Source: Pseudomonas fluorescens (GTDB lineage Bacteria > Pseudomonadota > Gammaproteobacteria > Pseudomonadales > Pseudomonadaceae). Taken from it: a stretch of 64,000 nt of DNA. The notes under the pieces were generated by a model that worked only from the letters and a program-made list of their open reading frames with translations, was not told the origin of the DNA and did not search any database. Location: NCBI RefSeq assembly GCF_001708445.1, contig NZ_CP015637.1:1-64000 (forward strand), read 5' to 3'. Positions 20,467 through 24,329 of the stretch are shown here, one piece after another. How positions within the stretch are numbered: position 1 is the first letter of the stretch; every line of letters starts with the position of its first letter. Position numbers and translations under genes: made by a program.

Positions 20467-20682
20467 ATGGAACGTACACTCAGTTCCGATCTGTTCTTCG
20501 AAGAAAAAGCTGTAAACACCCAGGCTTCCCTGCCTCTGCGCGTTCTCGCCAACCTGATGCTGTGGCAGCGCCGCATCTCCAGCCGCCATCAATTGGCTCG
20601 CCTGGATTCGCGTCTGCTGGCTGACGCCGGTATCAGCGAAGCTCAACGCTACGAAGAGCTGAGCAAGCCGTTCTGGCGCTGA
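20467..20682 (+). CDS. DUF1127 small protein (copy 1)
   Basis: The protein has 71 residues. The C-terminal half is a DUF1127 domain: MLWQRRISSRHQLARLDSRLLADAGISEAQRYEELSKPFW. It is arginine-rich and cytoplasmic. Some relatives in other bacteria act in RNA turnover or phosphate and carbon metabolism, but no function is known here. GGAAGG lies 8 bases before the ATG. It is followed by a strong terminator, so it is a single-gene unit with the GTACAG array as its control region. Confidence 0.85.
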   Translation: MERTLSSDLFFEEKAVNTQASLPLRVLANLMLWQRRISSRHQLARLDSRLLADAGISEAQRYEELSKPFWR

Positions 20683-20942: not shown

Positions 20943-21128
20943 ATGAACCTCCGTCCTTCGTCCAGCAAACGGCTGCTTATCCTTACTGCTTCAGCATTCG
21001 CCAGGTGGGTACGACGTCACTATGAGCGGCGCCAGCTGGCACAACTCGATCCCCGGGAACTGTCGGATGCCGGCATCAGCCACGCCGACCGAATGGCAGA
21101 GCTGGCCAAACCGTTCTGGCGTGACTAG
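20943..21128 (+). CDS. DUF1127 small protein (copy 2)
   Basis: The protein has 61 residues. DUF1127 motif: WVRRHYERRQLAQLDPRELSDAGISHADRMAELAKPFWRD. It is a paralogue of the gene at 20467, sharing the core L-D-x-R-x-L-x-D-A-G-I-S and the ending KPFW. GGAAG lies 7 bases before the ATG. It has a basic, cytoplasmic composition. No own terminator is obvious before the DUF2388 genes at 21291. Confidence 0.83.
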   Translation: MNLRPSSSKRLLILTASAFARWVRRHYERRQLAQLDPRELSDAGISHADRMAELAKPFWRD

Positions 21129-21290: not shown

Positions 21291-21611
21291 ATGTCCCGTC
21301 TTCGCCTGCTGAGTGCTGCCGCCCTGTTGGTATTGGCTGCCAATGCCAATGCGAGCAGTTTCATTGTGACCACCGACTCCATCGTTGGCGCACTGAAAGC
21401 CACCTCCGACGCCAGCTCCGATGCCACTTCATCGCTGCGTGACAACAAAGTCGTGCGCGCCTCCCGTGACGACGCCGCCAGCTTTGTCGCCAGCGAAGGC
21501 GCCATTCGTGGGGTGAAGCTGGAAAGCGCCCTGGCCCAGATCCGCCAACAAGCGCCACAACTGAACGCCGCGACTGACGCACAACTGGCCCAGGCTATCC
21601 TGGCCATCTAA
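21291..21611 (+). CDS. DUF2388 exported protein (copy 1)
   Basis: The protein has 106 residues with a signal peptide (1 to about 21, cleavage after ANA). The mature domain reads SFIVTTDSIVGALKATSDASSDATSSLRDNK, then RDDAASFVASEGAIRGVKLESAL and the C-terminal LAQAILAI. It is the first of three tandem paralogues. AGGAG lies 6 bases before the ATG at 21291; the longer frame from 21243 has no signal sequence. Periplasmic; function unknown. Confidence 0.85.
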   Translation: MSRLRLLSAAALLVLAANANASSFIVTTDSIVGALKATSDASSDATSSLRDNKVVRASRDDAASFVASEGAIRGVKLESALAQIRQQAPQLNAATDAQLAQAILAI

Positions 21612-21715
21612 GTCGCAGCACGCAGGGAGCGAGCGCCGCTCCCTGAATGCCATCGGACTGGCTCTCGCCCGGGCATTGCGCTAGCCTTGGCGCTCGCTTT
21701 CAGTTGTCGAGTCCC

Positions 21716-22024
21716 ATGGCTTTTTCATTCCGCCTGTTGATTGTTCCTGTGTTGTTTTCGGCCTGCTGGTCGTCGACGGCTTCGGCCTTTGACCTGACCA
21801 CCCAGAGTACCGTCGTGAGCGCGTACGCCACCAGCAAGGTGACCTCCGCGCCGTTTGACAGGAAGCTGATAATGGCCGCCCAGGATGACGCTGCCGCACT
21901 CATTGCCACCGACGGCCAATGGCGGGGGGCCCGACTGGAGTCAGCGCTGGATTATCTGCGCCGTACCCAGCCAAAACTTAACGCCAGCGACCTTGAACTG
22001 GCGCAAGCAATTCTCGTCCAATAA
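21716..22024 (+). CDS. DUF2388 exported protein (copy 2, divergent)
   Basis: The protein has 102 residues: a signal peptide (1 to about 23, ending TASA), then FDLTTQSTVVSAYATSKVTSAPFD and the shared core AQDDAAALIATDGQWRGARLESALDYL with the ending LAQAILVQ. It is the most diverged of the three and lacks a clear ribosome site (GAGTCCCATG). It starts 104 bases after copy 1 and ends 26 bases before copy 3. Confidence 0.78.
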   Translation: MAFSFRLLIVPVLFSACWSSTASAFDLTTQSTVVSAYATSKVTSAPFDRKLIMAAQDDAAALIATDGQWRGARLESALDYLRRTQPKLNASDLELAQAILVQ

Positions 22025-22050
22025 TCATCTTTGTATTTCGGAGTCATTCC

Positions 22051-22371
22051 ATGCGTAGCCCGCTGATCGCCGCCACCCTTGGCCTGCTGTTGTTGGCAGA
22101 CGTTGCCCAGGCGCATACCTTGGTGGCCACCAGTAACATCATTGTTCGCGCCTCTGGCCGCACCATTGATTTCACCTCGGACACCACCACCTCCATCCGC
22201 GACTCCAAAATCGTGCGCGAAGCCCACGATGATGCCGCCAGCTTCGTCGCCACCAATGGCGAAATTCGCGGTGCACAGTTGGAAGCCGCCTTTGACACCC
22301 TGCGGACCCGCGTACCGGAAGCCCGCGACGCCAGTGACCAGACCCTCGCCGAAGCCATTCTCGCTCTGTGA
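22051..22371 (+). CDS. DUF2388 exported protein (copy 3)
   Basis: The protein has 106 residues with a signal peptide (1-19, VAQA). The mature part has LVATSNIIVRASGRTIDFTSD, then HDDAASFVATNGEIRGAQLEAAFDTL and LAEAILAL, closely parallel to copy 1. GGAG lies 8 bases before the ATG. Its TGA overlaps the GTG start of the large DUF4105 gene, so the two are translationally coupled and probably work together. Confidence 0.85.
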   Translation: MRSPLIAATLGLLLLADVAQAHTLVATSNIIVRASGRTIDFTSDTTTSIRDSKIVREAHDDAASFVATNGEIRGAQLEAAFDTLRTRVPEARDASDQTLAEAILAL

Positions 22372-24329
22372 GGCGCATTAACGCCTGGCTCCTGGCCGGG
22401 GTTGTGCTGCTGTGTGCCAGCACCGCCCAGGCCAGCCTGCAACTGCGGCTCAAGACCGATGGCTTGAGCCCGGCTGAACAGCAGGCCAGCCAGGCATTGC
22501 TTGATGAGGCGATGCGCTCCTTGCCGCCGCGCTTCATCGAACAGCTGGACCGGCGCATCGATGTCGGCTGGACCGACCAAATGCCCGGGAACGCCTATGG
22601 CCAGGCTTCCCTGGTGTCCGAGCTGGACCTCAACCGCAACCTTCTCGCCAGCCTGACCGACGGCAGCGCCGCCACCCAGAAGACCAACCGCCCCCACGGC
22701 ACCGTGCGCCGGGAAATGCTCGCCACCGTGCTGCATGAACTGACCCACATCTATGACCGTGCGCGCCTCTGGTCCAAAGACGAACGCACACTGATCCAGC
22801 GTTGCAGCCGCCAGAACAACATCACCGGCTTGATCGGCCTGCCTGACCAATGCCGTGGCCAGAACGATCGCCGTTTCACCCTCAGTGACGACCCGCGCCT
22901 GCTGGACCTCGCCGGCTGGCCGCAATACGTCGGCCGCCGCGGCGAGCGTGAACAGCACAACCACCAGGTCGCGCGCAGCCCGGATATCTACGAAACCACC
23001 AGCCCGCTGGAGTTCGTTGCGGTCAACATGGAGTACTTTCTCCTCGACCCAAGCTACGCCTGCCGTCGCCCGTCATTGTTTCGCTATTACCAGCAACACT
23101 TCGGCTGGGCACCACCGGCACAGGACACCTGCGCAAGCACTTACGCCTTCCTCAACGCCGGTAACGATTTCGCCAAGACGCCCCTGGGCCAGGTCGATCC
23201 GGAGCGAGTGTATGAGATCGACTACCTGCTGGCCGAAGCCAACCAGAACCTGGTGAGCCGCTGGGGCCACAGCATGTTGCGCCTGGTGATCTGCGCGCCC
23301 GGGCGCCCCCGTGGCCCGGATTGCAGGCTGGACCTGGACCAGCACCTGGTGTTGTCCTACCGCGCCTTCGTCGGCGATGTGCAGCTGTCGAGCTGGGATG
23401 GCCTGGTGGGCAAGTACCCGTCACGGTTGTTCGTCCTGCCACTGTCCCAGGTGATCGACGAATACACCAAGACCGAGCTGCGCGGCCTGGCCTCGGTGCC
23501 GTTGAAACTCACGCGCCAGGAAATCAACGACACCGTTGAGCATGCCGCCGAGATGCATTGGAGCTACGACGGCAATTACTTTTTCATCTCTAACAACTGT
23601 GCGGTGGAAAGCCTGAAACTGTTGCGCAGCGGCAGCGCCAATCCGCAGCTGACCGGGCTCGACAACATCACCCCCAACGGCCTGCTCGAAGTCCTGCAGG
23701 CACGCGGCCTGGCGGACACCAGCGTACTGAAGGACAAACGCGAGGCGTTACGCCTGGGCTACCACTTCGACTCGTTCCGCGAACGCTACCAGGCGATGTT
23801 CGATGTACTGCGCAAACACCTGCCGATCAAGCAGACCCAGGTTGAAGATTGGTTATCCCTGAGCGCGGCCGAGCGCCGGCAATGGTTCGGCCAGGCCGAC
23901 CTGCGCACCAGCGCCGCGCTGCTGTTGCTGGAACAGGCGAGCTTTCGCAAGCAATTGATGCTGGCCCAGGATGAGGTCAAGCAGCGCTACCTCGGCGCTC
24001 GTGAGCTGAAAAATGGCGGCATGGAGAAAGCCAACGCCACGCTGCAACAGATCCTCGCCAACAGCGGCTTCCTCAGCCGTCCGGCGGAACTGCTGGGCAG
24101 CGGTGGCTACGGCTTGCCGCAACCGTCGGAATCCAAACGCCTCGAATCAGAAAGCGCCGAGCGCCAGAAGCAATTGCAATCCCTCACCGGCGAGCTGGAT
24201 AAAGAGGTGAGGGCGCTGCTGGAGCCCTCCCGTGCCGCTGAGATTGCTGCGTGTGAAGCCAACCTCAAGCAAGTGGGCGAGCATTTGCGGGCACTGCACA
24301 AGGCGGCCGGCGGGCTCGAACTGCCCTGA
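22368..24329 (+). CDS. DUF4105 (Lnb N-terminal-type) periplasmic protein
   Basis: The protein has 653 residues, GTG start coupled to the upstream DUF2388 gene, and a signal peptide (1-22, TAQA). Residues about 25-230 carry HELTH (His123-His127), which looks like a zinc-site motif. Residues about 280-430 are the DUF4105 domain with WGHSMLRLV (His301) and SNNCAVESLKLL (Cys411), the His/Cys pair expected of a papain-like thiol acyltransferase fold. The C-terminal ~200 residues are helical, with a coiled-coil-like end. Pfam renamed this domain after Lnb, a lipoprotein N-acylating enzyme described in Bdellovibrio (from memory); activity here is inference only. Confidence 0.8.
   Translation: MRRINAWLLAGVVLLCASTAQASLQLRLKTDGLSPAEQQASQALLDEAMRSLPPRFIEQLDRRIDVGWTDQMPGNAYGQASLVSELDLNRNLLASLTDGSAATQKTNRPHGTVRREMLATVLHELTHIYDRARLWSKDERTLIQRCSRQNNITGLIGLPDQCRGQNDRRFTLSDDPRLLDLAGWPQYVGRRGEREQHNHQVARSPDIYETTSPLEFVAVNMEYFLLDPSYACRRPSLFRYYQQHFGWAPPAQDTCASTYAFLNAGNDFAKTPLGQVDPERVYEIDYLLAEANQNLVSRWGHSMLRLVICAPGRPRGPDCRLDLDQHLVLSYRAFVGDVQLSSWDGLVGKYPSRLFVLPLSQVIDEYTKTELRGLASVPLKLTRQEINDTVEHAAEMHWSYDGNYFFISNNCAVESLKLLRSGSANPQLTGLDNITPNGLLEVLQARGLADTSVLKDKREALRLGYHFDSFRERYQAMFDVLRKHLPIKQTQVEDWLSLSAAERRQWFGQADLRTSAALLLLEQASFRKQLMLAQDEVKQRYLGARELKNGGMEKANATLQQILANSGFLSRPAELLGSGGYGLPQPSESKRLESESAERQKQLQSLTGELDKEVRALLEPSRAAEIAACEANLKQVGEHLRALHKAAGGLELP

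Follow-up and report, generated by a model that had tools for sequence, protein, structure and literature searches.

Exported DUF2388 proteins are co-inherited with a predicted two-headed DUF7844-Lnb_N enzyme in Pseudomonas

Here, an operon of Pseudomonas fluorescens is described in which, according to the sequence and a profile search, three DUF2388 genes are followed by a single 653-codon gene with a GTG start. The product of the large gene is predicted to be exported and to join a metal-dependent protease-like head to an acyltransferase-like head. The explanation put forward, tentatively and as a distinct possibility, is that the operon constitutes a dedicated periplasmic maturation system in which the DUF2388 proteins have their Ser/Thr-rich tails trimmed and/or acylated by the large enzyme. 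The window, i.e. the whole stretch of DNA analysed, comprises 64,000 nucleotides of contig NZ_CP015637.1, and the features of interest are collected in Table 1.

Table 1. Features of the operon in the window and of a second gene pair elsewhere in the same genome.
Feature	Position	Strand	Basis
DUF2388 copy 1, 106 aa	21291..21611	+	PF09498 100 bits, TIGR02448 112 bits
DUF2388 copy 2, 102 aa	21716..22024	+	PF09498 95 bits, TIGR02448 108 bits
DUF2388 copy 3, 106 aa, adjoins large gene	22051..22371	+	PF09498 103 bits
GTGA, start codon of large gene over stop of copy 3	22368..22371	+	Sequence, 4-nt overlap
Large gene, 653 aa: signal peptide, DUF7844 + Lnb_N + helical C-terminus	22368..24329	+	
DUF7844 domain, residues 25-253, MtfA-like metallopeptidase domain	22440..23126	+	Pfam, 390 bits
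HELTH (residues 123-127), HExxH zinc-peptidase motif	22734..22748	+	59/59
E215 to E222	23010..23033	+	Both invariant, 59/59
Lnb_N domain (formerly DUF4105), residues 270-440, NlpC/P60-superfamily type	23175..23687	+	Pfam, 95 bits
His301, predicted catalytic	23268..23270	+	59/59
Cys411, predicted nucleophile	23598..23600	+	59/59
C-terminal region, mostly helical	23688..24326	+	DSSP of AF2 model
DUF3015 gene, then DUF7843 + Lnb_N + DUF7840 gene, same strand	own genome 5671489-5673922 (L160:1990-4423)		

The coordinates given in a preliminary description for the three small genes and the large gene were correct at all positions checked, including the four nucleotides (GTGA) shared by the stop of copy 3 and the GTG of the large gene, and translation of the large ORF places HELTH, H301 and C411 where that description had them. 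Its small paralogues are indeed DUF2388 proteins, with 3/3 copies over the Pfam and NCBIfam cut-offs. Signal peptides, both of the DUF2388 proteins and of the large protein, were assigned by eye. Two DUF1127 genes lie upstream of the operon (window 20467-20682 and 20943-21128), and a DUF1127 match is found near the operon in only 12/31 related loci.

The pairing of DUF7844 and Lnb_N in one protein is already annotated by Pfam, and 120/120 homologues among the matches listed carry this architecture. The AF2 model of the large protein (m4c7d71f8c11c) has a mean pLDDT of 81.9 and a pTM of 0.81; Foldseek alone returned nothing for it at E <= 0.001. Past residue 30 there is no transmembrane-like segment (top 19-residue hydropathy 0.86), and the C-terminal region has no Pfam match. 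Residue counts are based on alignment A1, which holds 59 DUF7844-Lnb_N proteins and in which the HExxH (H123, E124 and H127), the downstream Glu, His301 and Cys411 are all invariant. At one locus, L023, the large gene is spread over two frames, in this genome only (95% complete); it is included in the synteny count and excluded from the residue counts.

The preliminary description located HELTH correctly and missed its role as part of a second, metallopeptidase-like active site. In an alignment with MtfA (Mlc titration factor A, family M90) the counterpart of HELTH is HEVAH, and the stretch from E215 to E222 aligns with AECFAVLSEYFF of the same protein, so that E215 is, by alignment, the probable third zinc ligand of the DUF7844 domain, given what we take to be the zinc-binding Glu of MtfA. 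The relationship is remote (profile E 2.5e-6): the Pfam M90 profile matches 51/59 members of A1 at E <= 0.1, and the window protein itself falls under the M90 cut-off (17.5 versus 26.2 bits). The HExxH and the Glu-containing helix were also aligned to 3dl1 and 9srw in the M90/MtfA comparison, and an MtfA fold is predicted for the DUF7844 domain. Besides its sub-threshold M90 score, the window protein differs from MtfA in having a signal peptide and a fused Lnb_N domain.

The Lnb_N match far exceeds its cut-off of 22.2 bits and, together with a predicted structure in which this part resembles TseH, an NlpC/P60-superfamily enzyme of Vibrio cholerae, it lends support to the earlier suggestion of a thiol enzyme. 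The likeness to TseH lies in the predicted fold of the Lnb_N part; TseH is a type VI secretion effector, whereas the window protein carries a signal peptide and has DUF2388 as its partner. Conservation of His301 and Cys411, on which the thiol-enzyme suggestion had been made to depend beforehand, extends throughout A1 and was also found in 48/48 sequences plus the distant member L038.

Lnb was described in Bacteroides rather than in Bdellovibrio, as had been supposed, and acylates lipoproteins, and another relative of the large protein, Tox-Act1, cleaves phospholipid acyl groups (PMC12994826). The window protein shares with Lnb (PF13387) an Lnb_N domain over the Pfam cut-off and the invariant His and Cys, but it is fused to DUF7844, its host has Lnt, and it is without a membrane-like segment, the membrane part of Lnb being read only from the Pfam name. 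The host lnt gene scores 305 bits against a cut-off of 132.9, and the large protein is therefore rejected as a substitute lipoprotein N-acyltransferase, i.e. a stand-in for a missing Lnt. Lipoproteins had also been proposed as targets; nothing in this analysis points to them, because the genome has its own Lnt and the DUF2388 alignment (51 rows) contains no conserved Cys.

Co-occurrence of the two families, whose absence had been named as fatal to the proposed link, was found in the genus, family and locus surveys. Among 57 relatives searched, both DUF7844 and DUF2388 are present in 36/36 genomes of the genus and neither is present in the 21/21 other genomes of the order. Across 119 genomes of the Pseudomonadaceae, 99 have both families, 19 have neither and one has DUF2388 alone (G515, genus g315, a genome 78% complete), so that presence and absence are concordant in 118/119, with a Fisher p of 4e-21 that ignores shared ancestry. 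Four genera (g309, g314, g315 and g321) each hold positive and negative members and, therefore, DUF2388 and DUF7844 were probably gained or lost jointly more than once. Further afield, four of 274 genomes from the class have DUF2388, in each case together with DUF7844, and DUF7844 exceeds its cut-off in these four and in one further genome, G067. A survey of 398 genomes across the phylum found DUF7844 over the cut-off in 23, all of them from the family of the window or from family f35, which is taken to be the Xanthomonadaceae; f35 locus L036 (G068) is identical in the query protein to L078 of Pseudoxanthomonas daejeonensis. Each positive genome of the Pseudomonadaceae has one DUF7844 match over the cut-off and between one and eight copies of DUF2388, some of them unlinked. 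In genus g317, three genomes of 3.2-3.3 Mb (G490, G505 and G517; L217-L219) carry 8, 6 and 7 copies, respectively, only two of which lie within ~8 kb around the enzyme gene.

Adjacency is equally consistent. A DUF2388 gene lies directly upstream of the large gene at 31/31 Pseudomonadaceae loci, with a gap of -4 in all; these loci come from 30 of the 36 genomes of the genus, that of the window among them, and from G218, and they have three DUF2388 copies in 28 cases and two in 3. In the remaining six genomes of the genus, profile-match tables likewise place a DUF2388 gene at this spacing. The same arrangement, DUF2388 directly upstream, holds for 18/18 DUF7844 loci of family f35 and for 80/80 named loci, mostly from genera of the Xanthomonas family, which were kept from 217 relatives and overlap the f35 set; here the gaps range from -4 to 156 nt, with the start chosen automatically. 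The window and the 80 named loci have no other ORF cluster in common, so that the surrounding genes point to no pathway, in a comparison that is rough, having recovered the DUF2388/large-gene pair itself in only 68/81 sequences.

Each DUF2388 protein starts with a signal peptide and continues through a Ser/Thr-rich linker into a conserved core; the mean Ser+Thr fraction, by group, is 0.31-0.52 in the linker and 0.07-0.10 in the core. The AF2 model of copy 3 (m90f23bbc8ad1, mean pLDDT 71.9) is of low confidence over residues 1-40 and has helices at 43-105; the core is predicted to be helical, with block pLDDT of 89-96 from residue 51 onward, and a comparison of DUF2388 with solved structures gave no fold match. 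In 51 chosen DUF2388 sequences D61, A62, A63, A67, G70, R73, E78, A80, R85, D96, L99, A100 and L104 are invariant, some of which vary slightly across 213 sequences. Unlinked copies (n=21; 20 from regions of relatives and one from the host genome) all keep A67, G70, R73, E78, R85, D96, L99, A100 and L104, while position 63 is occupied by Ser or Gly in most of them and positions 62 and 80 are variable. Within the linker, Ser43 is near-invariant in the 51-row alignment, but its conservation was not upheld across the 213 sequences and, consequently, the data support no single residue as acceptor site. In the host genome, the unlinked copy (region L161:3194-5814) is flanked by Band_7/NfeD genes on one side and a gene for an outer-membrane beta-barrel on the other.

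A second enzyme of the Lnb_N type in the same genome, 617 aa long with the architecture DUF7843 + Lnb_N + DUF7840, is encoded directly downstream of a DUF3015 gene; its Lnb_N score is 204 bits versus 95 for the fusion protein. In both pairs a small secreted protein precedes an Lnb_N enzyme, but the enzyme of the DUF3015 pair lacks DUF7844 and carries a C-terminal DUF7840, and DUF3015 has no detectable homology to DUF2388. The best conserved stretch of DUF3015 is rich in Ser/Thr/Asn/Gly. DUF3015 is found in 42/57 relatives, all 42 of which have a non-fusion Lnb_N; by a hand count of coordinates, the two are adjacent in 39/42 and apart in G008, G012 and G027. Neither is present in 13/57, including three genomes of the genus (G001, G013 and G028), and in two genomes (G040 and G052) only Lnb_N of the two is present. 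In G015, the second Lnb_N gene beside DUF3015 matches in two frames (C1:5038823-5039340), and another Lnb_N match lies elsewhere in that genome.

The divergent DUF7844-Lnb_N gene of G067 is not accompanied by DUF2388 as judged by Pfam. A 103-aa ORF (L038:491-802) ends 9 bp upstream of it and, with a signal-peptide-like start followed by a Ser-rich stretch, has the layout of a DUF2388 protein. It matches 19 database proteins, one at 99% identity and none with a Pfam domain, and its profile weakly resembles DUF2388, one comparison speaking for a relationship and two being less clear. The ORF is perhaps a diverged DUF2388 gene, and it is suggestive evidence that, as a rule, a small secreted protein accompanies the enzyme.

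Because there is one enzyme per genome and the DUF2388 copies number between one and eight, some of them unlinked, the DUF2388 proteins resemble a group of clients, which lends some weight to the earlier proposal that the large protein modifies, cleaves or acylates them. Each protein would dock on the enzyme through its conserved core; its exposed linker would be cut by the zinc domain, and/or the domain with Cys411 would accept an acyl chain, held as a thioester, from a membrane lipid and hand it to the linker, and the DUF2388 protein would thereby be released or anchored in the envelope, with one enzyme serving every copy in the cell, linked or unlinked. The Lnb-like domain with its Cys/His pair hints at acyl transfer and the MtfA-like domain at cleavage, and recurrence of the enzyme plus small-secreted-partner logic in the DUF3015 pair speaks for the client model. 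On the other hand, the linkers, though rich in Ser/Thr, may serve only as spacers, and two catalytic domains exceed the needs of one modification. A somewhat unlikely alternative is that DUF2388 proteins serve the large enzyme as dedicated inhibitors, pro-domains or chaperones, restraining a dangerous periplasmic peptidase/lipase whose true substrate lies elsewhere in the envelope. Precedence of the small gene and its translational overlap with the enzyme gene throughout the Pseudomonadaceae loci would suit such a role, as would the tight co-inheritance and the location of conserved residues in the core and not the linker, as expected of a binding inhibitor, albeit compatible with a binding protein of any kind; however, several paralogues, unlinked ones included, exceed the needs of an inhibitor, for which the Ser/Thr-rich linker also has no obvious use. 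From co-inheritance, the ratio of one enzyme to 1-8 partners and the combination of conserved core and variable linker, we infer that clients fit somewhat better than inhibitors.

It is quite unlikely that lipoproteins, phospholipids or peptidoglycan are the targets of the large protein, with DUF2388 as an adaptor or targeting subunit: relatives of the large protein, Lnb and Tox-Act1, do act on lipids (PMC12994826), but the presence of Lnt leaves no lipoprotein acylation step missing and genomes differ in how many copies of the supposed adaptor they carry (1 to 8). That adjacency reflects inherited gene order only, without a functional link, is hardly credible; all the comparisons share ancestry, which the Fisher p values ignore, but the pair is kept between the Pseudomonadaceae and the Xanthomonas family, where the rough comparison found no other shared ORF cluster, and the two families are jointly absent inside four genera that also contain positive members.

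A literature search covering few subscription papers found no paper naming two of DUF2388, DUF4105 and DUF7844 together and, among the matches listed, no Pseudomonas function for DUF2388, DUF4105 or DUF3015. A broader and distinctly doubtful generalisation is that the Gammaproteobacteria possess a class of Lnb_N enzymes that cut and O-acylate small secreted clients with Ser/Thr-rich tails (DUF2388 in the case of the DUF7844-Lnb_N fusion, DUF3015 in that of its paralogue) rather than lipoproteins; if true, O-acylated Ser/Thr tails would be a cysteine-free route to envelope-anchored proteins. Should the client model hold, envelope proteins would be modified without a lipobox cysteine, and the DUF3015 pair would suggest that Lnb_N enzymes beyond Bacteroides are put to this use more widely. 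Two DUF families, present together throughout the genus and in most genomes of the family (36/36 and 99/119), form a single system that can be tested and whose candidate catalytic residues are named.
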